From contig JBCCIS010000027.1 of assembly GCA_039028155.1 (NCBI GenBank), positions 1 through 64,000 on the forward strand: a stretch of 64,000 nucleotides of DNA, written 5' to 3'. The translations under genes were made by a program, and so were the position numbers. The notes beneath the pieces were generated by a model. It was not told where the DNA came from and did not search any database. It saw nothing but the letters and a program-made list of their open reading frames with translations. Within the stretch, counting starts at the first letter, position 1. Every line of letters begins with the position of its first letter. Shown here piece after piece: positions 22,025 to 63,130 of the stretch. This DNA comes from Pseudomonadota bacterium. Its GTDB lineage: Bacteria > Pseudomonadota > Alphaproteobacteria > SP197.

Positions 22025-22086
22025 AGAGCTGATGCACCTGTCTAGATGTCGTCGCGAAGCGATTCCTTCAAAGCAGGATCTGCGCG
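22025..22086 (+). repeat. Degenerate third copy of a 62-nt palindromic intergenic element
   Basis: This 62-nt stretch aligns without gaps to the element at 44753-44814, with about 47 of 62 positions identical when compared by hand. The best part is CGCGAAGCGATTCC followed by CAGGATCTGC. The left arm has decayed, so the hairpin is weaker. It begins 6 bp after the DUF1127 stop, in the gap before the FAD oxidase gene. Confidence 0.75.
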
Positions 22087-42710: not shown

Positions 42711-44672
42711 ATGTCCGATCAGTTCCCCAATCTGTTTTCGCCGCTCACCATCAAGGGCGTGACGTTCAAGAACCGGATCTTCTCAACCGGTCACATGACG
42801 ACCCTGTGTTCGGATTACCTGCCCAACGACGACTTCATCGCCTATCACGAGTCGCGGGCGGTCGGCGGCGCCGGTCTGATCATTACAGAGGTCGCCCTGG
42901 TCCACGACAGCGGCGTCTACACATCGCACACGGTCTCGGCCATGAACGACCGCTGCATCCCCGGCTACCGCAAGCTGGCGGACGCGGTACACGCCCATGG
43001 TTGCAAGGTGTTCGGCCAGGTGTTCCACCCCGGCCGCGAGAACTTTGAATCGATCGACGGCAGCGCGCCGGTCGCCTATGCGCCGTCGGCCGTGCCCAAC
43101 GAGCGATTCCACATCATGCCGCGCCCGCTCTCCAAACGCATGATCGGCGAGATTATTGCCGGCTATGGCGATGCCTCGGTGCGGATGCAGAATGCCGGCC
43201 TTGACGGGGTCGAGATCGTAGCGAGCCACGGCTACCTACCGGCCCAGTTCCTGAACCCCAAGCTGAACCTGCGCGACGACGAATACGGCGGCGATCTGGA
43301 CGGCCGCCTGCGTTTCATTCGCGAGATCGCCGCCGACATCCGCCGCAAGGTCGGACCCGACTACGTCATCGGCATGCGGATCTCCGGCGACGAGATGTCC
43401 TATGACGGCCTGGAGGCCGAACAGGTCGTCGAAGCGATCGTCAAACTGGATGAGGATGGCGACCTCGACTACTTCAATGTCATCGCTGGCTCGTCATCAT
43501 CGCTTGGCGGGTCCATCCACATCGTGCCGCCCATGTGGATCGAGAACAAATATGTCGCGCCGTTCGCCGCCACGGTGCGCGAAAAGATCTCGAAGCCCGT
43601 GTTTGTCGCCGGGCGCATCAACCAACCGCAACAGGCCGAGGAAGTTCTGGTCACCGGTCAGGCCGACATGATCGGCATGACACGCGCCCAGATCTGCGAT
43701 CCTGGCATGGCGAACAAGGCGCTCGCGGGCCGTGTCGACGACATCCGCGCTTGCATCGCGTGTAACCAGGCGTGCATCGGGCACATGCACTTGGGCGTCG
43801 GCATATCGTGCATTCAGCACCCCGAGACCGGGCGCGAGGTTCAGTACGGATCACGTAAGCCTATAGGAGAAAAGAAAAAAATCTTGATAGCCGGTGGCGG
43901 ACCCGGCGGCATGAAGGCCGCGGCCGTCGCCGCGGAGCGCGGTCACGACGTCACCCTTTATGAAAAGTCGGCTCAGTTGGGCGGCCAGACACTCCTTGCC
44001 CAGATGTTGCCAGGCCGTGCCGAGTTCGGCGGCATCGTCACCAACCTGACCCGCGAGATGGAGCTCGCCGGTGTCACGGTCGTGCGCAATCAAGAGGTCG
44101 ACAGGCAACTCGTCGAGCAAGAGAAGCCGGATGCCATCATCATCGCAACGGGCGCCGAACCCAGGCCCGTCGACATCGAGGGCGCCGACGAAGCGCACGT
44201 GGTCAACGCCTGGGCGGTGGTGCGCGGCGAAGCCAATGTCGGCGGTTCGGTGGTGGTTGCCGACTGGCGCTGCGACTGGATCGGCCTGGGCGTCGCCGAA
44301 CAGCTTGCGCGCAACGGGTGCAACGTCACCCTGGCGGTAGACGGCTACATGCCCGGCCAAACCATCCAGATGTATGTGCGCGACCACTGGGCCGGCATCC
44401 TGAACAAGCTCGGCGTCAAGATCATTCCCTATGCCAGGCTGTTCGGCGTCGACGACACGAGCGCCTACTTCCAGCACGTCACCAGCGGGGAACCCATTAT
44501 CGTGGACGAGGTCGACACCGTGGTGACGTCACTCGGTCACAGCGCCGTCAACGGATTGGCCGCCGAGCTGGACGGCTGGGACGGTGAGTTGCACGAGATC
44601 GGTGATTGTCTGGCGCCCCGCACCGCCGAGGAGGCGGTGCTGGAAGGGCTGAAGGTCGCCAACGAGATTTAG
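42711..44672 (+). CDS. FMN/[4Fe-4S] NADH:flavin oxidoreductase, trimethylamine-dehydrogenase/DienoylCoA-reductase type
   Basis: A 653-residue three-domain flavoprotein. An N-terminal Old Yellow Enzyme TIM barrel (residues 1-340; KNRIFSTGHMTTLCS, FHPGRE) is followed by a Fe-S site in CIACNQACIG plus a later Cys (GISCIQHP). An FAD/NAD domain starts near residue 387 (KKILIAGGGPGGMKAAAVAAE; TLYEKSAQLGGQ), and GDCLAPRTAEEAVLEG lies at the end. This is the architecture of trimethylamine/dimethylamine dehydrogenase and 2,4-dienoyl-CoA reductase. Which of these, or an N-methylamino-acid demethylase, cannot be decided. Single gene, ended by palindromic elements. Confidence 0.92.
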   Translation: MSDQFPNLFSPLTIKGVTFKNRIFSTGHMTTLCSDYLPNDDFIAYHESRAVGGAGLIITEVALVHDSGVYTSHTVSAMNDRCIPGYRKLADAVHAHGCKVFGQVFHPGRENFESIDGSAPVAYAPSAVPNERFHIMPRPLSKRMIGEIIAGYGDASVRMQNAGLDGVEIVASHGYLPAQFLNPKLNLRDDEYGGDLDGRLRFIREIAADIRRKVGPDYVIGMRISGDEMSYDGLEAEQVVEAIVKLDEDGDLDYFNVIAGSSSSLGGSIHIVPPMWIENKYVAPFAATVREKISKPVFVAGRINQPQQAEEVLVTGQADMIGMTRAQICDPGMANKALAGRVDDIRACIACNQACIGHMHLGVGISCIQHPETGREVQYGSRKPIGEKKKILIAGGGPGGMKAAAVAAERGHDVTLYEKSAQLGGQTLLAQMLPGRAEFGGIVTNLTREMELAGVTVVRNQEVDRQLVEQEKPDAIIIATGAEPRPVDIEGADEAHVVNAWAVVRGEANVGGSVVVADWRCDWIGLGVAEQLARNGCNVTLAVDGYMPGQTIQMYVRDHWAGILNKLGVKIIPYARLFGVDDTSAYFQHVTSGEPIIVDEVDTVVTSLGHSAVNGLAAELDGWDGELHEIGDCLAPRTAEEAVLEGLKVANEI

Positions 44673-44678
44673 GATCCT

Positions 44679-44740
44679 AGAGCGGATCGTGGTTAGGTGG
44701 AACCGTAAGACGGTTCCACCTAACCACGTGAATCCGCTCT
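44679..44740. repeat. 62-nt palindromic element, copy A (long perfect stem)
   Basis: Arms AGAGCGGAT and ATCCGCTCT bracket a perfect 18-bp inner stem: GTGGTTAGGTGGAACCGT pairs with its complement around an AAG loop. The whole 62-nt unit aligns to the reverse complement of the neighbouring copy at about 45 of 62 positions. It begins 6 bp after the flavoprotein stop and can act as a transcription terminator for it. The shared length and outer arms show that it is a member of a repeat family. Confidence 0.85.
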
Positions 44741-44752
44741 CTATCTAAGAGT

Positions 44753-44814
44753 AGAGCAGATTCACCTGCCTTGGCGGAATCGCGAAGCGATTCCACCAAA
44801 ACAGGATCTGCTCT
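44753..44814. repeat. 62-nt palindromic element, copy B (inverted relative to copy A)
   Basis: Outer arms AGAGCAGAT and ATCTGCTCT enclose an inner stem GGAATCGC / GCGATTCC with a GAA loop, extended by TTGG...CCAA. The right end reaches into the stop codon of the SPOR gene, which ends at 44813. With copy A it fills nearly the whole gap between two convergent genes. A degenerate third copy lies at 22025-22086. Confidence 0.85.
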
Positions 44815-46243
44815 AGGGTCCGAGCACCGAACAGTAGACGTTGCGGTCGACAAGGGCGGTACACCGCGCCGAAGCGGTGCCCTGGCTTTGCAGAGGTCCG
44901 GCCTGGAGGCGGAAGAACGTGCCCTCGTCCTGGCCTAGATCCTTGAGCACGATGATCGGTGTCAGATCAGCCAGCAGGTCCTGGTTGGCGAGCGCGATTT
45001 GCTGCCAACCCTCCTTTGCTTGGCGCACCGTCTTGTAAGACGCCAGCCAAAGGCGGTAAGGGCCGATTGATTCGGCATTGCCCAATTCAGCGGTGCGGAG
45101 CGGCACCATTGCGCCGACAAGCGCCTCCGGTTCATCAACGGCCGGTTGTTCGATTACCGGCGCCTCGACGGCCGTCTCGGCGACGACGATTTCTTCGGGT
45201 TCCGGTTCGACGTCGCTGACCGCCGGCTCCTCTGATGCTGGTTGGCTCTCAATCGCGCCGTCCACGATTTCCTCTAGAGCCTGATCGTCGGGCACGACCT
45301 CAATAGTCTCTGACTCCGGTTCCTCGGCGACCGACACCTCTATGGCCGGATCGTCTGCGGCGGGCGCCTCATCGGTGGACTCGTCCACAGCGGCTTCCTC
45401 GATGACGGGCTCGTCAACGGTGGGCTCTTCGACAGGCGTCTCCTCAATGCCCGGCTCAACCGTGGTGACCTCCTCGATTACCGTTTCCTCGACGATGATC
45501 GCCTCGGCCGCCGGTTCCCCTGTGTCCGGATCGACGATCACCTCGTCGACAATGGTCTCCTCGACCACAATCGTCTCGGTCGTGGGTTCTTCGACGTCGC
45601 CGAAATCGGCCGACCCTTCCCCGGTCGCTTCATCCACGAGAGCCGCCGCCTCGATCTCCGATTCAAGGTCGGCGGACGGGACTGACACGCCGGTTGACCC
45701 GTCATCGATTTCGTCCTCGATCAATGACGTCGGTTCAGGCATCTCGATGTTCTCTGCGGCGACAACCTCCTCCACCGGTTCGTCGGCGATCGCCTCGTCG
45801 GGCACGGCCTCCATCACCGTGTCGGGTTCGGGCACGGTTTCCGGCTCCAGCTTTTCGGTTGTTTCTTCCACCACAACCTCGACCTGAGGTTCATCCACGG
45901 CAGCGTTGTCGGCTGCGCTGTCTTCGGACTGGTCGTCGGGCAAGCCAGCATCCGCCGCGTCTACACCCGCCACATGGTCTTCATCGGTATTGTCATCGGC
46001 CGTTTCGGAGGTCCCGTCGTCCTCAGGCGATACCGTCTCCGCATCCACAACAGTCCCGGGCGTCTTCAAGGCGTCACCCAGCGGCAGCACCACGGCCTGG
46101 CCAGCCTCGACCATCGCCTCGATATCCGCCGGCTTCGCGTCCGACGTCTCCTGCGCCCGCGCCGGCAAAACAGCGAGGCCAAGGCCGAGCAACAGGGCTG
46201 TCAGGCCTCCCCACGAGGGCACGAGACGAGCTGGCGCAGTCAT
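44813..46243 (-). CDS. Exported acidic low-complexity protein with a C-terminal SPOR-like domain
   Basis: A 476-residue protein in three parts. A signal peptide (GGLTALLLGLGLAVLPARA, cleavage near residue 30) comes first. A disordered region of about 350 residues (about 45-395) follows, extremely rich in Glu, Asp, Val and Pro (repeats such as VVEETIVDEVIVDPDTGEP and EEPTVDEPVIEEA). A C-terminal globular domain of about 75 residues (YRLWLASYKTVRQAKEGW, then FRLQAGPLQSQ) matches the SPOR fold, which binds denuded septal peptidoglycan. The linker could act as a long negatively charged spacer in the periplasm. Its stop falls in palindromic copy B. Confidence 0.8.
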   Translation of the reverse strand: MTAPARLVPSWGGLTALLLGLGLAVLPARAQETSDAKPADIEAMVEAGQAVVLPLGDALKTPGTVVDAETVSPEDDGTSETADDNTDEDHVAGVDAADAGLPDDQSEDSAADNAAVDEPQVEVVVEETTEKLEPETVPEPDTVMEAVPDEAIADEPVEEVVAAENIEMPEPTSLIEDEIDDGSTGVSVPSADLESEIEAAALVDEATGEGSADFGDVEEPTTETIVVEETIVDEVIVDPDTGEPAAEAIIVEETVIEEVTTVEPGIEETPVEEPTVDEPVIEEAAVDESTDEAPAADDPAIEVSVAEEPESETIEVVPDDQALEEIVDGAIESQPASEEPAVSDVEPEPEEIVVAETAVEAPVIEQPAVDEPEALVGAMVPLRTAELGNAESIGPYRLWLASYKTVRQAKEGWQQIALANQDLLADLTPIIVLKDLGQDEGTFFRLQAGPLQSQGTASARCTALVDRNVYCSVLGP

Positions 46244-51205: not shown

Positions 51206-54034
51206 TCAGACCGTCGCGACGATCTCGATGTCAGATGCGGCCGGTTGGTCCATGGCTGCGACGGCTGTATAGCCATCAGTCGCACCGTTGCCGTCATAGT
51301 GCAGCACGCCATCGGCCAGCGAATAGATGAACGAGCCCTGGCCCAAACCATGGTTCACATTGGCGCCCGCGTTCGTGCCGTCATAGGAGTCGTTGATGAC
51401 GGAGAAGTTGACACCGTTCTGCAGATTGCCGATCGGCAGGCCGCCGAACGCGCTGCTCAGGAACGCGACCGTGTCGGCACCGCTCTCGAAATCGACAATG
51501 ACGTCAGGCGCCGGGCTGTTCAGATTGGAGAACGCGGTGTTACCGGCCACGGCAAATCCATCGTCGACGTTGTCATAAACGAAGCGATCGTTGCCTTCGC
51601 CGCCGGTCATGAAATCGTCACCGCCGCTGCTGAACAGCACGTCGTTGCCGTCGCCACCATTCAGCGCATCGCCATTGTCACCTTCGCTCATGGCGAACAG
51701 CTGGTCGTTGCCGTCCCCACCCTCGAGCGACTCGACCGTGTCGTCGCGCGTCGCGTAGATGATGTCGTCGCCGTCACCGCCATCGGCGGCTACCTCATCG
51801 CCACGCACGGCCAGGACATCGTTGCCGTCGGACGGCGCATTGAGCGACGTCACCCAGGAGATCGTCACGGATTCGCCCGGTTCCAGGTCCGGCAGGTCGT
51901 AGACGAGATTGATGGCGATATCGCCCGCACGGCCATTCGGATCGGCCGGGTTGTCAAACGCATTGGGGTTAAAGGGGTTCAGGTTCAGGAAGCCGAACGC
52001 CGACGCGCGCACCGCGATCGAACCGTCATCAAGACCGTTGGCGGCATTCAGCGCACCCTGGTCGGCCAGCAGCAGAATGCTCTGATCGCTGGTCGGCCCC
52101 TGGGCATCAACGGCGGCGATGCCGTTCTCATCGGGGTTCATCAGGACATCGTTGACGGTTCTGAACGTGCCGCCACCGTCGGCGTCCTGATCGGGGTCGC
52201 CACTGCGCATGTAACGCAAGCCAGTGATCGTGCCGTCGCCGGAATTGGTCAACGTCACGGTCGTGGTGAAGAAGGTATCGTTCAGGCCGAGGCTGATCGT
52301 CTGGCTCACATCGAGACGGCCGTCGACGCCGCCGGCTGACGTCACCGAATTCACGCCGCCGCCGGACGCGGTATCGCTGAGCCCCATGGCAATGTCGGTG
52401 CCCAGACCGCCGCCCTGGTTCGAACCGACAAAGGCGCCGGCGCCGTCGGTGAACGCTATGGTGAAGTTCTCGACCGGGATTCCCGGCAGGAACGCATCAC
52501 CCGTCGTTGCATCGTCGCCGGCGAGTGGATCGTCATCGCCATAGAACGACAGGTTCGGTCGGTTGAGCTGATCGGCGGAAGCGAAGCCGTCGGGTGGCGC
52601 GCTATCGGTGCCCAGCGCGCCGTTCGCCGACACGCCAAGCTCAAGAAAGGTGCCTCGCAGGAACGCATCCGCACCACCGACAACAACGACGTCCGGATCG
52701 GTGGGAGCCTGATCCGTCTCGACCACCGGGTCGGTCTCGACCGGCGGATCACTGCGCGCCTTGTCCGGAAGGCTCTCGTCGGCAGGCGGTGTGACGCCGG
52801 GGATTTCATCGCCGGCGGACGCGCCAGTCGGTGTGGGATCGTCCGTCGCGTCGCTCTCGGCGTTCGCGGTCTCGTTCTCTTCGATTTCCTCGGCCAGAGC
52901 CTCGAACAGGTCGCCAACCGCCTCGGCGAACGCCTGCACGGCGGCGTTGGGGTCGGCAGGCTCGCCCGCTTGGGATTCGTCGTCGCCGGGATTGCCGTTC
53001 TCGGTGACGTCCGCCACCGTCAGCGTCGACGCCGCTCCCTCATCGGACGGCGCGTTCGCGTTGGTGTTCGAACTCTCGTTGATCACGCTGTCGCCAACGC
53101 CAAGGTTGGCCTCACTGAGCAACTGCATGGTCGCGAGCGCGGCGCGATAGAGCGCCTCGATGTCCGCGCCGCCCAAAATCTCGACCGGTGTCGGCGCCTG
53201 GTCCAGCGATGTCACCGTCGTCGTCGCACCGACCTCGCTCAAAATGACCGTCCCGATTTCCGTCGCGACTTCGACCAGACCGACATTACCGTCCGGGTCC
53301 TGCAGCAGCGTGACGAGGTTCTGCAGGCCTTCGGCGGCCGCCTGGATCGCCGCCGAGGTGCCGCGAATGCCGATCGTCGCCACCGGCGTCTCGACGGTCA
53401 TGTCGCCGGTCTTGACGACATCACCGGAAACCAGAACGAACAGACCTTGGACCAACGAGAACGAAGCGACGTTGCTGTCGGAACCGGGATCGTAGATCAG
53501 CTCGTCGACAACCATGCGGGCGTCTTCTGATAGCGAGAACCGCGTGCCATCGGTGAACAGCACCGCGATGGCACCATCGGACGGCGTCTGAAGTACGTCA
53601 CCCATGTAGATCGGCGAACCCACCTCCAGCGCCACCTGCGTGCCGTCGGCACGGATGGCGAAGGCCTCACCGGTCGCCGCCTCGACCTGGCCGATTGCGC
53701 CGTCAGTCACCGATGCCGTCTCGGCCTGGGCGTACTGGCCGGCGGTGGGTGAACCCGCGAGCGCCGAGACCAGGGCACCTTTCAGCACACCGGCGCCGTC
53801 GCCCAGAACGAGGTCGCTAGGTTCGGTTGTGGCGAAGTAGTCCTGAATGACGACCTGGGTGCCGTCCAATCCCTCAATGACCAGATCGGGACCCTGACGG
53901 TCGAAGTCGGCACGCAGCGCCATGTCGCCGAATGGCAGGCTCAACGGCCCTTGCGCCATGCCATCGACCACATGGGGCGACGGTGACGTGACCGGAGCGG
54001 ACAAGGCCGTACTTGCAGTACTTTCGACCGCCAT
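51206..54034 (-). CDS. Short FecR-domain RTX protein (942 aa), chassis without Ig repeats
   Basis: A secreted-type protein with no Sec signal. Residues 1-110 form a conserved N-terminal module (RADFDRQGPDLVIEGLDG, VVIQDYF, GVLKGALVSALAGSPT). Residues 114-235 form a FecR-like domain (IGQVEAATGEAFAIRADGTQ, EVGSPIYMGDVLQTPSDG, VETPVATIGIRGTS). After an acidic linker comes a sandwich-like domain of about 270 residues (GIPVENFTIAFTDGAG, TGLRYMRSGDPDQDAD). A block of RTX Ca2+ repeats follows (GGDGDDIIYA, GGDGNDQLFA, GGDGNDVLFSSGGDDFMTGGEGNDRF) and a tail ending AMDQPAASDIEIV. The start at 54034 matches the paralogue MAVEG. Export by a type I system is inferred. Confidence 0.85.
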   Translation of the reverse strand: MAVESTASTALSAPVTSPSPHVVDGMAQGPLSLPFGDMALRADFDRQGPDLVIEGLDGTQVVIQDYFATTEPSDLVLGDGAGVLKGALVSALAGSPTAGQYAQAETASVTDGAIGQVEAATGEAFAIRADGTQVALEVGSPIYMGDVLQTPSDGAIAVLFTDGTRFSLSEDARMVVDELIYDPGSDSNVASFSLVQGLFVLVSGDVVKTGDMTVETPVATIGIRGTSAAIQAAAEGLQNLVTLLQDPDGNVGLVEVATEIGTVILSEVGATTTVTSLDQAPTPVEILGGADIEALYRAALATMQLLSEANLGVGDSVINESSNTNANAPSDEGAASTLTVADVTENGNPGDDESQAGEPADPNAAVQAFAEAVGDLFEALAEEIEENETANAESDATDDPTPTGASAGDEIPGVTPPADESLPDKARSDPPVETDPVVETDQAPTDPDVVVVGGADAFLRGTFLELGVSANGALGTDSAPPDGFASADQLNRPNLSFYGDDDPLAGDDATTGDAFLPGIPVENFTIAFTDGAGAFVGSNQGGGLGTDIAMGLSDTASGGGVNSVTSAGGVDGRLDVSQTISLGLNDTFFTTTVTLTNSGDGTITGLRYMRSGDPDQDADGGGTFRTVNDVLMNPDENGIAAVDAQGPTSDQSILLLADQGALNAANGLDDGSIAVRASAFGFLNLNPFNPNAFDNPADPNGRAGDIAINLVYDLPDLEPGESVTISWVTSLNAPSDGNDVLAVRGDEVAADGGDGDDIIYATRDDTVESLEGGDGNDQLFAMSEGDNGDALNGGDGNDVLFSSGGDDFMTGGEGNDRFVYDNVDDGFAVAGNTAFSNLNSPAPDVIVDFESGADTVAFLSSAFGGLPIGNLQNGVNFSVINDSYDGTNAGANVNHGLGQGSFIYSLADGVLHYDGNGATDGYTAVAAMDQPAASDIEIVATV

Positions 54035-54304
54035 GTGCGTGTGTCCCTCAAACAAGGCCGTTTTTGGCCCTTTTTGTGCGCTCACCGCGTTGATTGAGCC
54101 CCAGCGTCACGGGCGCGCCATATCAACGCACTACTACTTTAGAGCAAGGAAACTATCGCCGGTAGCGGATGCAGGTAGGTGTGTCAGCCATCACACTTTG
54201 GGCCGATTTAAAGCCGAATCTGCGGGCCGGACACCGAATCGCGTCGGAATGGGCATGTTCAGCCCGAGTTGGGGCTTCTCGAGACCGGCGAACCGGCGGC
54301 CCGG

Positions 54305-57300
54305 CTACGTGCTGGAGACGATCTCGATATCGGAGGCGGCTGGCTGATCCATGGCCGCGACAGCCGTGTAACCAGCATCGGCGCCGTTGCCGTCATAGTG
54401 CAGCGTGCCGTCGGCGACCGAATAGACAAAGGTCGCCTCGCCGGCATCATGGTTGGCGTTGGTGCCGGCATTGGTGCCGTCATAGGAGTCCGCGATCACC
54501 GAGAAGTTGACGCCATCGACCAGCGCGCCCTCTGGCAGGTCGCCAAAGGCATCGCTGAGCAGCTGAATGACGTCCAGTCCGCTCTGGAAGTCGACAATGG
54601 TGTCGGCCTCAGGCGAAGCGATCGACGAGTAGGTGGTGTTGCTCGCGATAACGTGGCCATCATCCTCGTCATCATAGAAGAAGATGTCGGCGCCCAGGCC
54701 ACCGGTCAAACTATCGGCGCCGCCGCCACTGCTTAGGAAATCGCTGCCATTACCGCCGACAAGCACGTCGCCGGTCGCACCGGTGCTGTAGGCGAACAGC
54801 GCATCGGTGCCGTTGCCACCGATCAGGGTCTCGCTCGTCTCCTCGCGCGCGGCCAGAACGATGTCATCGCCGTTGCCGCCATCGACCGTCGTCTGATCCG
54901 CCTGCGCGACCAGATAGTCGTTGCCGTCGGACGGATTGTTGGTCGAGGTCACCCAGGTGATCGTGATCGACTCGCCGGGTTCCAGATCCGGCAGAACATA
55001 GACAAGGTTGATGCCGATATCGGCGGTCGAACCATTGGGATCGGATGGATTGTCGAAACCCCGCGAATCGAACGGGTCGAGGTTCTCGAAGCCATAGGCC
55101 GACGCACGCACCTGGATTGAACCGTCGTCGAGACCGTTCTCCTGGTTGAGCGCCGACTGATCGGCGACCAAGAGGATGCTCTGGCCGCTAAACTGGCCCA
55201 AGGCATTGACGGCGGCGACACCGCCCGTGCCATCCGGGTTCAGCAGAACGTCGTTGATCGTCGGGAAGCCGATACCGCCCACCGCATCGACCTCGTGATC
55301 GGGATCGTTGTTGCGCATGTAGCGAAGGCCGGTGAGTGTCTCGTCACCGGTGTTGGTAATCGTTACGGTCGTTGTGTAGTAGGTGTCGTCGGCACCAAGG
55401 CTCACCGTCTGGCTGATCTCGACCTTATCGTCGACACCGCCCGTCAGAGTCGCCGATGCCACACCGTCGTCCGACGACGTGCTTTCGACGCTCATCGGGA
55501 TGTCGGTGCCACCATCATCATTCTGGTTCGATCCGACAAACGATCCTTCCGAATCGGTAAAGGCGAGCGTGAAATTCTCGACCGGGATACCCGGCAGGAA
55601 CGCATCGCCGGTGCCGTTGTCACCGTCGGCCAGCGGCGCATTGCTGGCATAGAACGAAAGCCCCGGCAGACCAGGCTCGTTGGATGCCTCAAACGATTCC
55701 GGCGCCGCACCGACGGTACCCATCGCACCGTTCGCGCCGATGCCCAGTTCCACAAACGTGCCCTGCAGGAACACTTCACCATTGTTGTTGACGACGACAT
55801 CAACCTCGCCGGGCTCAGGCTCGATCTCGTCGGTCGCGCCACTCTCGACGGTTTCAAGCGTCCCTTGGCCATCGGTGTAACTCACGACAACGCGAACCTG
55901 GAACCCGACTTGGTCTTCGTCCGGTGTGAATGTGTCGTCCGTCGCGCCATCGATATCGACCCATCCGTCACCGGTCAGAACCTGCCACTGATAGCTGAAC
56001 TCACCGAGACCATCGTCATCGCTTAGACCGGACGTGTCGGCCGTCAACGCCTCGCCCTCTTCGGGATCGCCGTTAATGCCGACATTGCCTTCCGGTGCGT
56101 CGTTGACGTTCGCCACGTTGTCGGTGGCGGCGCTCTCGACCGTCTCGACAGTACCGCCGCCGTCGGTGTAACTGACGACCACGCGCATCTGGAAGCCGAC
56201 TTCGTCGTCACCGGGCGTGAAGCTGTCGTCCGTCGCGCCTTCGACGTCCTGCCAGCCGGTATCAGTCAGGATCTGCCACTGATAGCTGAATGGACCAAGG
56301 CCATCGTCATCGCTGAGATCCGACGTGTCGGCGGTCAGCGTCGAATCTTCCTCAGCGACGCCATTGATGCCGACGCCGCCATCCGGCTCGTCGTTCACGT
56401 TCGCAATCGGATCGGTTGCCGCGCTCTCGACACTCTCGTTCGTGCCCTCGCCGTCCGTATAGCTGACGACAACACGAACCGGTGCGCCGACCTCATCATC
56501 GCCCGGCGTGAATGTATCGCCGATCGCGCCTGCGATATCGATCCACTCACCGTCGATCAGCGCCTGCCACTGATATTCAAACTCGCCCAGGCCATCATCA
56601 TCCGATAGGCCGTCGGTGTTGGCTGTCAGGATGGAGTCTTCCTGAGCGGCGCCGTCGACGATGACGTCGCCTTCCGGCTCGTCGTTGACATTGGCAATCG
56701 GATCGGTCGGTGCACTTTCGATACTCTCTTCCGTGCCCTGGCCGTCCGTATAACTGACGACAACACGCACCTGCTCACCAACCTGGTGGTCGCCTGGCGT
56801 GAACGTGTCGTCGGTCGCACCGTCGATGTCCGTCCACTCGCCATCGACCAGCGCCTGCCATTGATAGCTGAACTCACCGAGGCCATCGTCATCCGACAAC
56901 TCGTCGGTGTTGGCGGTGAGTTCGGAATCCTCCTCCGCCACACCGTCGATCGTGACCGCACCATCGGGGTCATCGTTTACGTTGTCGACAGGGTCGGTTG
57001 CAGCGCTCTCGGCACTCTCGGTGGTGCCTTGGCCGTCCGTGTAGTCCACGACAACACGCAGTTGCAGGCCGACCTGATCGTCGCCCGGCGTGAACGTCGC
57101 GTCGGTCGCGCCGGCGATCGCGACCCAAACACCTCCGGCAAACGCTTGCCACTGATAACTGAACTCGCCCAGGCCATCATCGTCGGAGAGGCCATCCGTA
57201 TTGGCGGTGAGCTCGCCATCTTCCTGGGCGACGCCGTCGATCGTCACCGCGCCCTCGGGCTCGTCGTTTACATTGGCAATCGGTCCGGTTGGATCGCTTT

Positions 57301-60300
57301 CGACCGTCTCGGCCGTGCCCTCGCCGTCCGTGTAGCTGACGACAACGCGCACCTGCGAACCGACTTCGTCATCGCCCGGTGTGAAGGTCTCATCGATGGC
57401 GCCGGCAATGTCGATCCATTCGCCGTCAACCAATACCTGCCACTGGTAGCTGAACTCGCCCAAGCCATCGTCATCCGACAGACCGTCGGTGTTGGTAGAG
57501 AGTTCGGAGTCTTCCTGCGCGACACCATCGATCGTGACAGCACCCTCAGGGTCATCGTTGACATTGGCCACAGGATCCGTCGCCACGCTCTCAACAGTCT
57601 CGGCCGTACCCTGACCGTCCGTGTAGCTGACGACCACCCGCACCTGCGCGCCGACCTCGTCGTCGCCAGGCGTGAAGGTGTCGCCTGTCGCGCCGGCAAC
57701 GTCGATCCATTCACCATCGACAAGCGCCTGCCACTGATAGCTGAACGCGCCCAATCCGTCGTCGTCGGAAAGGCCGTCGGTGTTTGCCGCGAGCTCGCTG
57801 TCTTCTTGCGCGACACCATCGACGAGCACGGCCCCTTCAGGCGGATCGTTCTCGTTACCGATGGACGCCGTCGGATCGCTCTCGACGGACTCGGCCGTGC
57901 CTTCACCGTCAGTGTAGCTGACGACGACACGGAGCTGCTGACCAACCTGGTCGTCGCCCGGCGTGAACGCATCATCCGTAGCGCCAGCAATATCGATCCA
58001 CTCGCCATCGACAAGCGATTGCCACTGGTAACTGAACTCACCGAGGCCATCGTCATCCGACAGACCGTCGGTGTTCGCCGTGAGCTCGCTGTCTTCCTGC
58101 GCGACACCATCGATTGTAACGGCGCCCGCAGGCTCATCATTCACGTTGGCAATTGGGTCAGTCGCATCGCTTTCGACGGTCTCCGCCGTGCCTTCGCCGT
58201 CTGTATAACTGACCACAACGCGCACCTGTGCGCCGACCTCAACATCGCCCGGCGTGAACGAATCATCCGTCGCACCGGCAATGTCGATCCATTCGCCATC
58301 GATCAGGGCCTGCCACTGGTAGCTGAACGCGCCGAGGCCATCGTCATCCGACAAACCGTCGGTATTGGCGGCGAGTTCCGAATCCTCCTGCGCCACGCCG
58401 TCGATCAGGACCGCGCCGGCCGGTTCGTCATTCACGTTGGCGACCGGGTCGGTCGCACCGCTCTCGACACTTTCCGCCGTGCCCTGGCCGTCCGTATAGG
58501 AGACGACGACACGCAATTGATCGCCGACCTGGTCATCGCCAGGCGTGAAGGTGTCGTCGGTCGCGCCGGCGATGTCGACCCATTCGCCATCGATCAGCGC
58601 TTGCCACTGATAGCTGAACTCACCCAGGCCGTCGTCATCCGACAGGCCGCCCGTATTGGCCGAAAGCTCCGCATCCTCTTGGGCGATGCCGTCAACAAGA
58701 ACGGCGCCTTCCGGTGGGTCGTTCTCGTTGCCAATGGGCGCAGTCGGTTCGCTCTCGACCGACTCGGCCGTGCCCTCGCCATCAGTGTAACTGACGACGA
58801 CACGCAACTGGTCGCCGACCTGGTCATCGCCAGGCGCAAACGTCTCAGCAGTCGCACCGGCAATGTCGATCCACTCGCCATCAGCGAGGGCCTGCCACTG
58901 ATAGGAGAAGTCACCCAGACCGTCATCGTCGGACAGGCCATCGGTGTTGGCCGTGAGCTCACTGTCTTCCTGCGGTGCACCGTCAATCGTGACGACGCCA
59001 GCCGGGTCGTCGTTCACATTCGCTACAGCAGCGGTCGGGTCACTCTCGACCGATTCAGGCGTTCCCTCGCCGTCTGTATAGCTGACGACAACACGCACCT
59101 GTGCACCCACTTCGTCGTCGCCAGGCGTAAAGGTGTCATCGGTGGCACCAGCAATGTCGACCCATTCGCCGTCAACCAGCGCCTGCCACTGATAGGAAAA
59201 CTCGCCCAGACCATCATCATCGGAGAGACCATCAGTGTTGGCCGCAAGCTCACTGTCTTCTTGCGCGACACCATCGACCAGCACGGCGCCTTCCGGCGGA
59301 TCGTTTTCGTTGCCGATCGGCGCGGTCGGATCGCTCTCAACCGTCTCGGCCGTACCCTCGCCGTCGGTATAGTCGACGACGACACGCAATTGCTGGCCAA
59401 CCTGGTCGTCGCCCGGCGTGAACGTGTCCTCCGTCGCGCCTGCGATGTCGACCCACTCGCCATCGACCAGCGCTTGCCACTGATAGCTGAACGCGCCCAA
59501 GCCGTCGTCATCCGACAAATTGTCCGTGTTCGCGGTGAGAACGGCATCTTCCTGGGCGGCGCCATCAATGGTGACGTCGCCTTCCGGCTCATCATTGACG
59601 TTCCCGACCGGATCGGTCGCCGCACTCTCTACGGTCTCAGCCGTGCCCTCGCCGTCGGTATAGCTAACGACGACGCGCACCTGGGCGCCGACTTCATCAT
59701 CGCCGGGTGTGAAGGTGTCGTCCGTCGCACCGGCAATGTCGGTCCACTCACCATCGACCAGCGCCTGCCACTGGTAGCTGAAGTCGCCCAGACCATCATC
59801 ATCCGACAGACCGTCGGTATTGGCCGATAGCTCGCTGTCTTCCTGGGCAGCACCGTCCACGACGACCGCACCCGCGGGCTCATCGTTGACGTTCGCCACG
59901 GGATCAGTCGCCTCGCTTGCGACACTCTCGGGGTTGCCGCCGCCATCTGTATAGCTGACGACGACACGCAACGCGTCACCGACCTGATCGTCGCCCGGCG
60001 TAAACGTGTCACCGGTCGCACCGGCGATATCCGTCCACGTGCCATCGATCAGCGCCTGCCACTGATAGCTGAACGCGCCCAGACCGTCGGCATCGCTGAT
60101 GCCGGAGGCGTCGGCGGTCAGCACCTCATCTTCCTGCGCCAAGCCGGCAATCGTCACGTCACCTTCGGGATCGTCGTTGATGTTGCCGACGGGATCTGTG
60201 GGATCGCTGGTCACGCTCTCCGGCGTGCCTTCGCCATCGGTGTAACTGACGACAACGCGCACCTGCTGCCCGACCTGATCGTCACCGGGTGCGAAGGTGT

Positions 60301-63130
60301 CGTCGGTCGCGCCCGCGACATCCGTCCATTCACCATCGACCAGCGCCTGCCACTGATAGCTGAACGCGCCGAGACCATCGTCATCGGTGAGGTCATCGGT
60401 GTTGGCCGTGAGTTCGCTGTCTTCCTGGGCGTCGCCCTCAATGACGACGGCACCAGCCGGATCGTCGTTCACGTTGGCGACCGAATCGGTTGACGCGCTT
60501 TCAACGCTTTCAGCCGTTCCCTCGCCATCCGTGTAGCTGACAACGACACGCAGCTGATCGCCGACCTGATCGTCGCCCGGCGTGAAGGTCTCATCGGTCG
60601 CGCCGGCGATGTCCGTCCATTCACCATCGACCAGCGCCTGCCACTGATAGCTGAACGCGCCCAGGCCATCGTCATCGGTCAGACCGGATGCGTCGGCCGT
60701 GAGCAGCGAGTCTTCCTGGGCGACACCGCCAATGGTCACGACGCCGTCAGGCTCGTCGTTGACGTTCTCGACCGGCGCGGTGGCGTCGCTTTCGACGCTC
60801 TCCGCGTTACCGCCGCCATCCGTGTAGGAGACGACGACGCGCAACTGATCGCCAACCTGGTCATCGCCCGGCGTAAAGCTCTGGTCCGTCGCGCCGGCGA
60901 TATCGGTCCAGACACCATCGACCAGCGCCTGCCACTGGTAGCTGAACGCGCCCAGGCCATCGGCGTCGCTCAGGCCCGAGGTATCCGCCGTCAGCGGTGA
61001 ATCTTCCTGGACATCGCCGAGAATGGCGACCGCACCAGCCGGATCATCATTGACGTTGGTAACCGGATCGGTCGCGCCGCTGGTGACGCTCTCTGCCGTG
61101 CCGTTGCCGTCGGTGTAGCTGACGACGACGCGCAGCTGCGAGCCGACCTCTGGATCATCCGGCGTGAAGGTGTCGTCTGTCGCTCCGGCGACATCAGTCC
61201 AGACACCATCGACCAATGCCTGCCACTGGTAACTAAGATCGCCCAGACCATCGGCGTCGCTCAAACCTGAGGTGTCAGCGGTCAGAAGCGCATTCTCCTG
61301 AGCCACGCCATCGATCAGGACATCGCCTACCGGCGGATCGTTTAGATTTCCGATCGGCGCGGTCGGGTCGCTCGTGACGCTCTCGCCCGTGCCTTGGCCG
61401 TCCGTATAGGAGACAACCACGCGCACCGCGTTGCCGACCTGATCGTCGCCGGGCGTGAACGTCGTGCCGGTCGCGCCGGCGATGTCGGTCCAGACACCGT
61501 CGACCAGCGCCTGCCACTGGTAACTGAAGTCGCCCAGGCCGTCGTCATCGCTGATGCCCGAGGCATCGGCCGTCAGAAGTGAATCTTCCTGGGCGTCACC
61601 GGCGATGACGACGTCGCCTTCCGGCGCATCGTTGACATTCGCGATGGGATCGGTCGGACCGCTCGCAACGCTCTCCGACGTCCCGCCGCCATCGGTATAG
61701 GAAACGACCACGCGCACCTGCGCGCCGACCTGGTCATCGCCGGGCGCGAACGTCTCATCGGTCGCGCCATCGATGTTGACCCAGCCGCCCTCGGTCAGAA
61801 CCTGCCACTGGTAGGAAAACTCGCCGAGACCATCGGCATCGGTGATCTCTGATGCGTCCGCCGTAAGCAGGGTATCTTCGACCGACGCGCCGGTAAGGGT
61901 GACCTCGCCCGCTGGCGGGCTGTTGGTGCTGCCCTCTTCGGTCATTTCCTCAATCGTTTCGTCGTTGCGCTCCTTGTCCGGCAGGCTCTCCAGCTCGTCG
62001 CCGGCCGACGCGCCGGTTTCTTCTTCTCCCTCGCCGCCGTCTTCGCTCTCACCTTCGCCTTCGGCCTCTTCGATGGCGGCGGCAAGCTCTTCGAACAGAT
62101 CCTCGACCGCCTCGGCAAAAGCCTGAACCGCGGCATCCGGGTCGGCGGGCTGGGCCTGATCGCCACTGCCGTCATCGGCACCCGTCTCGACGCCCAGATC
62201 GGCATCGTTCAGCACCTGCATGGTGGCGAGTGCAGCGCGATAGAGCGCCTCGATATCGGCGCCGTCTAGAATTTCGACAGGGCTCGGCGCCTGATTGATG
62301 GACGAGACCGACGTCGTGGCGCCGAGTTCGCTCAGGATCACTGCCGCGACGTTGGTGGCGACCTCGACCAGACCAGTAGTCTCATCGGGATCCTGCAGCA
62401 GCGTGACGAGGTTCTGGATGCCTTCGGCGGCCGCCTGGATCGCCACCGATGTGCCGCGAATGCCGATGGTCGAAACCGGTGTTTCGACTGTCATATCGCC
62501 GGTCTTGGCGACATCGCCGGAGACCAGGACGAACAGACCCTGGACCAGCGAGAACGAAGCGACGTTGTTGTCGGAACCGGGATCGTAGATCAGCTCGTCG
62601 ACAACCATGCGGGCGTCTTCGGACAGCGAGAACTGTGTGCCGTCGGCAAACAGAACGGCGACCGCGCCGTCAGACGACGTCTCCAGGACATCGCCCAGAT
62701 AGATCGGCGAGCCGACTTCCAGTGCGACGCGCGTGCCATCGACGCGAACGGCGAAGGCCTCGCCGGTAATGGCCTCGACCTGGCCCACCGAGCTCGCGGT
62801 CAACGACGCGCTATCGAGTTGGGCGTACTGGCCGGGCGTCGGCGATCCGGCAAGCGCCGACACCAGGGAACCCTTCATGACGCCGGCGCCCTCACCCAGG
62901 ATCAGATCCGGCGGCGTGGCGGCCGTAAAGTAGTCCTGGATCAGAATCTGGCTACCGTCGCGGCCCTCGATCAAGAGATCGGGGCCCTGGCGATCAAATG
63001 ATGCGCGCAGCACACTCTCGGCGTCGTCGATGTGAATGCCACCAGACGACATTCCGTCGATCACGTGAACCGGCGAACCCGCAGGGGTACCCGCCGACAA
63101 TGCTGCTACGTCCAAGCCTTCCACAGCCAT
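54305..63130 (-). CDS. Giant FecR/Ig-repeat/RTX adhesin-like protein (2941 aa)
   Basis: A 2941-residue protein with the same plan as its 942-aa neighbour plus a large insertion. Order: N-terminal module (FDRQGPDLLIEGRDG), FecR domain (about 110-230; GQVEAITGEAFAVRVDGT, VETPVSTIGIRGTS), an acidic linker, then 21 Ig-like repeats of 97 residues each (55799-61909). The shared sandwich-like domain follows (GIPVENFTLAFTDSEG, TGLRYMRNNDPDHEVD), then RTX repeats (GGNGDDIVLA, GGNGTDALFA, GGNGSDFLSSGGGADSLTGGLGADIF) and the same C-terminal tail (AMDQPAASDIEIV). No Sec signal. The architecture is that of a surface or biofilm adhesin exported by type I secretion; direct evidence is lacking. Confidence 0.88.
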   Translation of the reverse strand: MAVEGLDVAALSAGTPAGSPVHVIDGMSSGGIHIDDAESVLRASFDRQGPDLLIEGRDGSQILIQDYFTAATPPDLILGEGAGVMKGSLVSALAGSPTPGQYAQLDSASLTASSVGQVEAITGEAFAVRVDGTRVALEVGSPIYLGDVLETSSDGAVAVLFADGTQFSLSEDARMVVDELIYDPGSDNNVASFSLVQGLFVLVSGDVAKTGDMTVETPVSTIGIRGTSVAIQAAAEGIQNLVTLLQDPDETTGLVEVATNVAAVILSELGATTSVSSINQAPSPVEILDGADIEALYRAALATMQVLNDADLGVETGADDGSGDQAQPADPDAAVQAFAEAVEDLFEELAAAIEEAEGEGESEDGGEGEEETGASAGDELESLPDKERNDETIEEMTEEGSTNSPPAGEVTLTGASVEDTLLTADASEITDADGLGEFSYQWQVLTEGGWVNIDGATDETFAPGDDQVGAQVRVVVSYTDGGGTSESVASGPTDPIANVNDAPEGDVVIAGDAQEDSLLTADASGISDDDGLGDFSYQWQALVDGVWTDIAGATGTTFTPGDDQVGNAVRVVVSYTDGQGTGESVTSDPTAPIGNLNDPPVGDVLIDGVAQENALLTADTSGLSDADGLGDLSYQWQALVDGVWTDVAGATDDTFTPDDPEVGSQLRVVVSYTDGNGTAESVTSGATDPVTNVNDDPAGAVAILGDVQEDSPLTADTSGLSDADGLGAFSYQWQALVDGVWTDIAGATDQSFTPGDDQVGDQLRVVVSYTDGGGNAESVESDATAPVENVNDEPDGVVTIGGVAQEDSLLTADASGLTDDDGLGAFSYQWQALVDGEWTDIAGATDETFTPGDDQVGDQLRVVVSYTDGEGTAESVESASTDSVANVNDDPAGAVVIEGDAQEDSELTANTDDLTDDDGLGAFSYQWQALVDGEWTDVAGATDDTFAPGDDQVGQQVRVVVSYTDGEGTPESVTSDPTDPVGNINDDPEGDVTIAGLAQEDEVLTADASGISDADGLGAFSYQWQALIDGTWTDIAGATGDTFTPGDDQVGDALRVVVSYTDGGGNPESVASEATDPVANVNDEPAGAVVVDGAAQEDSELSANTDGLSDDDGLGDFSYQWQALVDGEWTDIAGATDDTFTPGDDEVGAQVRVVVSYTDGEGTAETVESAATDPVGNVNDEPEGDVTIDGAAQEDAVLTANTDNLSDDDGLGAFSYQWQALVDGEWVDIAGATEDTFTPGDDQVGQQLRVVVDYTDGEGTAETVESDPTAPIGNENDPPEGAVLVDGVAQEDSELAANTDGLSDDDGLGEFSYQWQALVDGEWVDIAGATDDTFTPGDDEVGAQVRVVVSYTDGEGTPESVESDPTAAVANVNDDPAGVVTIDGAPQEDSELTANTDGLSDDDGLGDFSYQWQALADGEWIDIAGATAETFAPGDDQVGDQLRVVVSYTDGEGTAESVESEPTAPIGNENDPPEGAVLVDGIAQEDAELSANTGGLSDDDGLGEFSYQWQALIDGEWVDIAGATDDTFTPGDDQVGDQLRVVVSYTDGQGTAESVESGATDPVANVNDEPAGAVLIDGVAQEDSELAANTDGLSDDDGLGAFSYQWQALIDGEWIDIAGATDDSFTPGDVEVGAQVRVVVSYTDGEGTAETVESDATDPIANVNDEPAGAVTIDGVAQEDSELTANTDGLSDDDGLGEFSYQWQSLVDGEWIDIAGATDDAFTPGDDQVGQQLRVVVSYTDGEGTAESVESDPTASIGNENDPPEGAVLVDGVAQEDSELAANTDGLSDDDGLGAFSYQWQALVDGEWIDVAGATGDTFTPGDDEVGAQVRVVVSYTDGQGTAETVESVATDPVANVNDDPEGAVTIDGVAQEDSELSTNTDGLSDDDGLGEFSYQWQVLVDGEWIDIAGAIDETFTPGDDEVGSQVRVVVSYTDGEGTAETVESDPTGPIANVNDEPEGAVTIDGVAQEDGELTANTDGLSDDDGLGEFSYQWQAFAGGVWVAIAGATDATFTPGDDQVGLQLRVVVDYTDGQGTTESAESAATDPVDNVNDDPDGAVTIDGVAEEDSELTANTDELSDDDGLGEFSYQWQALVDGEWTDIDGATDDTFTPGDHQVGEQVRVVVSYTDGQGTEESIESAPTDPIANVNDEPEGDVIVDGAAQEDSILTANTDGLSDDDGLGEFEYQWQALIDGEWIDIAGAIGDTFTPGDDEVGAPVRVVVSYTDGEGTNESVESAATDPIANVNDEPDGGVGINGVAEEDSTLTADTSDLSDDDGLGPFSYQWQILTDTGWQDVEGATDDSFTPGDDEVGFQMRVVVSYTDGGGTVETVESAATDNVANVNDAPEGNVGINGDPEEGEALTADTSGLSDDDGLGEFSYQWQVLTGDGWVDIDGATDDTFTPDEDQVGFQVRVVVSYTDGQGTLETVESGATDEIEPEPGEVDVVVNNNGEVFLQGTFVELGIGANGAMGTVGAAPESFEASNEPGLPGLSFYASNAPLADGDNGTGDAFLPGIPVENFTLAFTDSEGSFVGSNQNDDGGTDIPMSVESTSSDDGVASATLTGGVDDKVEISQTVSLGADDTYYTTTVTITNTGDETLTGLRYMRNNDPDHEVDAVGGIGFPTINDVLLNPDGTGGVAAVNALGQFSGQSILLVADQSALNQENGLDDGSIQVRASAYGFENLDPFDSRGFDNPSDPNGSTADIGINLVYVLPDLEPGESITITWVTSTNNPSDGNDYLVAQADQTTVDGGNGDDIVLAAREETSETLIGGNGTDALFAYSTGATGDVLVGGNGSDFLSSGGGADSLTGGLGADIFFYDDEDDGHVIASNTTYSSIASPEADTIVDFQSGLDVIQLLSDAFGDLPEGALVDGVNFSVIADSYDGTNAGTNANHDAGEATFVYSVADGTLHYDGNGADAGYTAVAAMDQPAASDIEIVSST
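55799..61909 (-). repeat. 21 tandem 291-bp units encoding 97-residue Ig-like repeats
   Basis: Inside the giant gene, 21 units were counted in the protein. Unit boundaries at 61909, 61618, 58999 and 55799 fit a period of exactly 291 bp. Each unit carries a GxV(T/L)xxGxAQEDSxLTANT start, a DDDGLGxFSYQWQ core, IAGAT, FTPGDDQVG, RVVVSYTDGxGT and an NVNDxP end. Units 8-18 are the most alike; units 1-5 and 20-21 differ more (LTADAS or LTADTS instead of LTANTD). Codon differences between units show that the array is not freshly duplicated. Confidence 0.93.

Follow-up and report, generated by a model that had tools for sequence, protein, structure and literature searches.

The RIME of Rhizobium, said to have been described by Osteras in 1995, reportedly consist of two large palindromes and have a length of ~130 bp. 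The CIR of Caulobacter are intergenic, alphaproteobacterial repeats of ~110 bp, in which two long arms are connected by a linker and which carry GANTC sites (PMC2229807). RUP from Streptococcus pneumoniae and Correia/NEMIS from Neisseria are MITEs with TA termini (PMC2229807), and members of the IS630 family insert at TA with a preference for CTAG (PMC2170065 and the Tenzen papers cited therein). The palindromic DNA at 44679-44814 of the window, by which is meant the whole stretch of 64,000 nucleotides that was analysed, has features in common with all of these. It is very probably a non-autonomous MITE of the IS630 family (Tc1/mariner-type) with a length of 134 bp, each of whose terminal repeats (~28 nt) is doubled into a hairpin. 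The family appears to be undescribed, its general kind being known; a literature search found no paper on it, although one may nevertheless exist.

Structure of the Element in the Window

An earlier note on this DNA had reported two copies of a 62-nt palindrome with the same outer arms in opposite orientation, and they are present as reported, one on each strand and 12 nt apart (Table 1). The inner stem of copy A, given there as a perfect stem of 18 bp, is indeed perfect but has a length of 19 bp. The folding energies of both units lie well below those of shuffled sequences (z from −9 to −13), and the loose pattern AGAGCNNAT..ATNNGCTCT has exactly two matches in the window, namely units A and B, with none in 100 shuffles. 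The curated covariance models of Rfam gave no match in the window. The bulge of unit B reads TCA on the plus strand (44762-44764) and, like that of unit A, lies on the side facing the spacer, from which the opposite orientation of the copies follows. A TGA bulge is present in 116 of 129 distinct units. A cloverleaf fold of the whole composite, which is energetically possible, was considered and rejected; separate hairpins are preferred because the R/Y base co-varies inside each unit (G with C in A, and A with T in B).

Table 1. Coordinates of the element, its parts and a related copy in the window
Feature	Position	Strand	Remarks
Hairpin unit A	44679..44740	+	Outer end GAGCGGATC, inner end TGAATCCGCTC; covariance model 84.7 bits
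Inner stem of unit A, perfect 19 bp, 3-nt loop	44688..44728 (arms 44688-44706 / 44710-44728)	+	
Asymmetric bulge TGA of unit A, 3 nt	44729..44731	+	From folding
Spacer CTATCTAAGAGT, 12 nt, between the hairpins	44741..44752	.	12-14 nt in nearly all species
Hairpin unit B, inverted	44753..44814	-	Covariance model 80.7 bits
Whole mobile element, 134 bp (hairpin A, spacer, inverted hairpin B)	44680..44813	.	From empty sites of other copies and the shared layout
Left TA target-site duplication, target C-TA-G	44678..44679	.	From end-flank statistics and the single TA in empty sites
Right TA target-site duplication	44814..44815	.	Completes, together with the element's terminal base, the TAG stop of gene 44813-46243 (minus strand)
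Decayed copy of unit B	22025..22086	-	Genome search with the covariance model, E 1.8e-5

Copy Number and Composite Layout

The strict pattern finds 66 copies in the window's own 5.31-Mb genome (0 with the reversed pattern as control), and a covariance model trained on 28 copies finds ~90 sites. A chance local duplication, which the earlier note had set against its own reading, is thereby refuted, and its proposal of a palindromic element, dispersed between genes, constant in length and with compensatory changes in the arms, is borne out by the copy number and the co-variation of the arms. The single palindrome of 62 nt is not the repeated unit, however; what moves is the pair together with its spacer (44680-44813).

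This is evident when 91 sites of the window's genome are read together with their flanks. At 47 of them the model detects both units, usually an A-type unit (AGAGCGGAT/ATCCGCTCT) beside a B-type unit (AGAGCAGAT/ATCTGCTCT), with the bulges directed inward and a gap of 12–13 nt, and many sites with a single detected unit have a decayed partner alongside. Sub-families that differ in their stems stay with their own partner (e.g., CGCGATTAATCAGAGCC with CGCACTCTATCTGAATCG), and deletion derivatives of ~33, 42, 59, and 105 nt have retained both outer GATC ends. The consensus GAGCRGATC is found at both outer ends (94 ends), which makes these ends terminal inverted repeats. As a MITE should be, the element is short (134 bp), devoid of coding capacity and dispersed over ~90 sites.

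Insertion and Target Site

The outer flanks are non-random: in 94 ends there is a T at position −1 in 83% and a C or T at position −2 in 88%. The flank consensus is YTA/GAGC...GCTC/TAR (a slash marks the end of the element), the target being YTAR and mostly CTAG. The sister genome G001 (MAG PL23b_bin.48) provided orthologous stretches with empty sites, those aligned being mostly 83–94% identical. For example, an empty CTTTAGGATG corresponds to a filled CTTTA/GAGC..GCTT/TAGAAG (L201/L035), and the same stretch also contains the reverse case, where G001 is filled and the window's genome is empty, reading TCTTAAGAG. Other pairs are CCCTTAAGACG and CCCCTA/GAGC../TAAGACG (L151/L321), GGCCGCTAGGG and GGCCGTTA/GAGC..GCTC/TAGGG (L203/L331), and CTCCTTCTATCCCAC and CTCCTCCTA/GAGC..GCTC/TATCCCAC (L218/L300). 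In the last pair the target is CTAT; therefore the G is the element's own and the duplication is TA alone. A 4-bp duplication (CTAG or YTAR) was considered and rejected, since TT/AG flanks are not mirrored at the opposite end and the empty sites CTAT and TTAA fix the TA. These comparisons of filled and empty sites show that the element GAGC...GCTC (134 bp in the window) is inserted precisely as one unit and that TA is duplicated.

Among the loci that could be compared, ~9 are occupied both in the window's genome and in G001 and ~10 in the window's genome only. As about half of the compared sites are thus not shared between sister genomes, movement is fairly recent. At the locus in the window itself, genome G006 has the orthologous convergent gene pair without the composite, this intergeneric comparison at ~75% identity being less clean. 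In G002 (L273) a copy of the G002 sub-family lies shortly past the stop codon of the orthologous gene. One gene is thus trailed by the element in two genera, with different distances to the stop codon and different sub-families; the two copies are either independent insertions at one locus or one old insertion that has drifted.

Gene Context and Stop Codons

The window copy lies between convergent genes, and its hairpins are very stable on both strands, which invites the view that it is a bidirectional transcription terminator, as the earlier note had assumed, or a stabiliser of 3′ mRNA ends, maintained by selection. However, at the 91 sites the neighbouring genes (simple calls from codon usage) are convergent in ~25%, tandem in 49%, and divergent in 26% of the cases, with ~20 sites between divergent genes, and these are background proportions: the gene pairs of the window are 9 convergent, 18 tandem, and 9 divergent. 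Neither hairpin is followed by a T-run and neither received a terminator call, the lone weak hit of the terminator scan being a stem of 5 pairs at the edge of the element. The insertions are also highly polymorphic between sister species, and the A units show no excess of G-U over A-C mismatches (see below). The terminator role is therefore unsupported, and we consider it unlikely that selection for termination or mRNA stability accounts for the repeats; the element may still cause termination as a by-product. Overlaps of elements with gene calls resemble miscalled start codons, perhaps with the exception of one decayed copy.

At 27 of the 91 sites (30%) an end of the element is flush with a TAG stop codon, to which the target contributes TA and the element the G. 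Special targeting of stop codons was rejected as an explanation since 16 of the 51 non-coding YTAR sites of the window lie in stop codons; such insertions are frequent because these sites are plentiful, and their availability suffices. The window copy is a case in point (Table 1): it lies between convergent genes because the TA of a TAG stop codon was the target and not because of a role in termination. The left neighbour (42711-44672) encodes an FMN/NAD(P)H oxidoreductase, and the right neighbour (44813-46243) has no Pfam match.

The stop codons in the window are 21 TAG, 20 TGA, and 3 TAA. TAG is thus as frequent as TGA, which is unusual for a genome with 63% GC. Elsewhere in the window two neighbouring genes on the minus strand encode similar FecR-domain proteins of 2,941 amino acids (54305-63130) and 959 amino acids (51206-54085), the larger of which contains many near-identical repeats of ~95 amino acids each.

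Distribution

Carriers among the matches listed are Pelagibius, Denitrobaculum, Thalassobaculum, Tistlia, Roseospirillum, Aquibaculum, and many MAGs. The element was found in 10 of the 16 genomes of the order-level sample of the window, and the strict pattern in 7 of 385 genomes drawn evenly from the class. Over dozens of genomes of the Rhodospirillales/Kiloniellales type the composite layout is conserved, while the stem sequences vary and the arms of the hairpins co-vary. In 67 composites from other species the units are mostly 60–63 nt long and the spacers mostly 13 nt.

The two long arms with their linker and the GAATC/GATTC at the bulge, both as described for CIRs (PMC2229807), could mean that the structure is a CcrM-associated intergenic repeat, kept in order to present GANTC methylation sites. 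Yet in the second unit of the 67 composites, where the search pattern had left the site free, GANTC is found in 49 and TTCAC in 59, so that GANTC, although present in most units, is less conserved than TTCAC and probably not the conserved core, and this explanation is in our opinion very unlikely.

It should be mentioned that the spacers of other species (e.g., L064 and L066) are often similar to CTATTTGAT and that an IHF-like motif, NATCAANNNNTTR, is present in 11 of the 67 spacers as compared with 0.07 in shuffles, the spacers being related by descent. A short form occurs in the Hyphomonadaceae MAG D5_Bin_17 (L046, L067, L084, L085, L103, and L131), with a first unit of 51–52 nt and a second unit that is built differently and ends with GGGTCTA. 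A copy of the Pelagibius type (L135) was found on a MAG contig labelled Anaerolineae, which is probably a binning error.

Arm Pairing within the Hairpins

In the A units of the window's genome the arms are Watson-Crick paired at a fraction of 0.86, as compared with 0.66 when the 3′ arms are re-dealt among the units. Their mismatches are 46 G-T and 58 A-C, which is about equal and reveals no bias toward G-U. In the B units G-T mismatches (105) outnumber A-C mismatches (22); common descent could account for this, and selection on RNA is also consistent with it. In the 67 composites from other species the two arms within the second unit agree at 0.92, a figure inflated by the fact that these composites were chosen for some arm pairing, whereas agreement between the left and the right end is 0.72. 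Each hairpin is therefore kept as a hairpin. There are, moreover, perfect palindromes both ways, namely of 59 nt with two GATC ends and of 64–65 nt with two TGAATC ends. Such palindromes and the balanced mismatches of the A units are as expected from correction at the DNA level or from template switching. We give an even chance to the view that it is mostly events in the DNA, namely template switching or the processing of cruciforms, and not selection on RNA, that maintain the pairing. In the Pelagibius copies L066 and L031 the second hairpin either is flipped, so that the bulge is outside, or no longer has a bulge, which hints at processing of cruciforms or template switching.

The doubling of each terminal repeat may also be no accident. 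A hairpin formed in single-stranded DNA would by itself constitute a complete, double-stranded binding site for the transposase, with the position of cleavage at the foot of the stem, and a DDE enzyme might then move the element from single-stranded DNA, for example when the lagging strand at the replication fork exposes each hairpin. If this were true, it would explain why the two-hairpin layout has been kept across genera despite freely changing stems. We regard it as a long shot.

The Putative Transposase

Several IS630 elements of related bacteria begin with TAGAGC. A complete IS630-family element of 1,052 bp was found in Pelagibius sp. IP29b_bin.129 (L355:977-2028), with an HTH-type reading frame at 969-1430 followed by a DDE frame at 1507-2019; this element itself sits at the TAG stop codon of a gene ending at 979. 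Its left end AGAGCGTTTCCTGATTTGATAGAATCG is identical in 22 of 28 positions with the B-arm consensus of the window's genome (AGAGCAGATCCTGTTTTGATGGAATCG), and its right end AGAGCGTTTCATGTTTTGACGGAAGCG in 22 of 28 positions with the outer arm of the second unit in Pelagibius copies. As controls, other TAG-preceded 28-mers have a distribution that peaks at 8–9 identities, with a tail of ~16–17 that does not stem from elements. Since either IS630 end is also similar to the arms of the other type (18–21 of 28), it is likely, though not certain, that A corresponds to one IS630 end and B to the other. The best interpretation of these alignments is that the two hairpins are the terminal repeats of an IS630 element, each of them doubled. 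The element thus has the TA target with CTAG preference and the ends homologous to those of a DDE-bearing IS630, although the link to the parent relies on one well-matched IS630, which is from another genus.

No IS630 gene of the DDE_3 type was found in the window's genome or in G001, both of which are draft assemblies. Draft assemblies often lose multi-copy insertion sequences. An autonomous copy with a transposase between GAGCRGATC ends was not found in the loci examined, neither at 20 places with orphan ends nor among all end pairs ≤3.5 kb apart, the TAGAGCRGATC ends there being relics, deletion derivatives, or chance only. The IS630 of G003 (12 matches), whose ends read ~TATACCAAAGCGC, was rejected as parent, and the GATCCGCTCTA nearby in L260 is a fragment of a neighbouring element. 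Plasmid and phage collections contained no match to the element, and two pattern matches in viral contigs, inside coding sequence, look like chance.

Other transposases have to be considered. DDE_Tnp_1/DUF4096 genes are present in the window's genome, G001, G002, and G013, and the MITE might thus be moved by an IS5/IS427-type instead of an IS630-type enzyme. This is highly improbable, however, as none of these loci has element-like inverted GAGC ends at the distance expected for an insertion sequence, whereas the IS630 ends match over the whole arm.

The earlier note had suggested that the element is perhaps REP-like. If so, each 62-nt palindrome would be a REP, and two of them in inverted orientation would form a BIME that owes its spread to a RAYT (an IS200/IS605-type tyrosine transposase). 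In favour of this are the small size of the palindromes, their asymmetric bulge, their intergenic location and frequent inverted pairing, and a GT in front of unit B of the window, by which the inner edge reads GTAG, but as a claim of membership it is refuted and deserves almost no credence: there is neither a constant GTAG nor a CGTC tag (the inner flanks vary and the outer flanks are YTA), the 134-bp composite moves as a whole with a TA duplication, and the two genomes with the most copies (the window's and G001) gave no match when searched for a Y1_Tnp/RAYT gene as partner. For Y1_Tnp (PF01797) the result was negative also in G002, G013, and G011, whereas G004, which has one PF01797 gene, has 0 copies of the element.

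Proposed Mechanism and Implications

We thus picture the pair of hairpins as a MITE for which an IS630 transposase is supplied in trans. The enzyme would bind to the outer repeats, excise the element and join it into a TA. Insertions would survive only where they are harmless, which is either between genes or at a stop codon whose TA is the target and whose TAG would be restored by the G of the element. An element of this kind can land at the end of a gene without altering the protein.

With this, a family of repeats that populates the intergenic DNA of one group of alphaproteobacteria is described and explained, and the tempting regulatory interpretation as REP or terminator is removed. The family also provides a natural test case for two questions: what keeps quasi-palindromes palindromic, template switching or selection, and for what reason the terminal repeats of a MITE would each be retained as a hairpin.

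Comparison with Known Systems

With REP/BIME and their RAYT (GTAG families; PMC3733652) the element shares small intergenic palindromes in inverted pairs; it differs in having neither RAYT nor tag, in the TA duplication and in that the composite is the moving unit. Like RIME, to which it is likened by description only, it is an intergenic element with an adjacent pair of palindromes. The likeness to CIR, which is also by description only, lies in the two arms with a linker, GANTC, and the intergenic location in alphaproteobacteria, but in the description of CIR the GANTC lies at a terminal loop and terminal inverted repeats are absent (PMC2229807). RUP and Correia/NEMIS resemble it in that they, too, are ~100–150 bp long, mostly intergenic, present in ~100 copies and have terminal inverted repeats with TA ends; in contrast to these, the element consists of two complete, separate hairpins and a spacer rather than of one overall stem, and its sequence is unrelated.

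The IS630/Tc1-mariner elements of Rhodospirillales-type bacteria share with it the TA/GAGC ends, the homology over the ~28 nt of the arms, the TA duplication and the preference for CTAG/YTAR. They differ in possessing a transposase gene, in having terminal repeats that are not doubled into hairpins, and in that GAGCGTTTC is the counterpart of the end GAGCRGATC. The IS630 from Pelagibius has even been found, as has the element, in a TAG stop codon.
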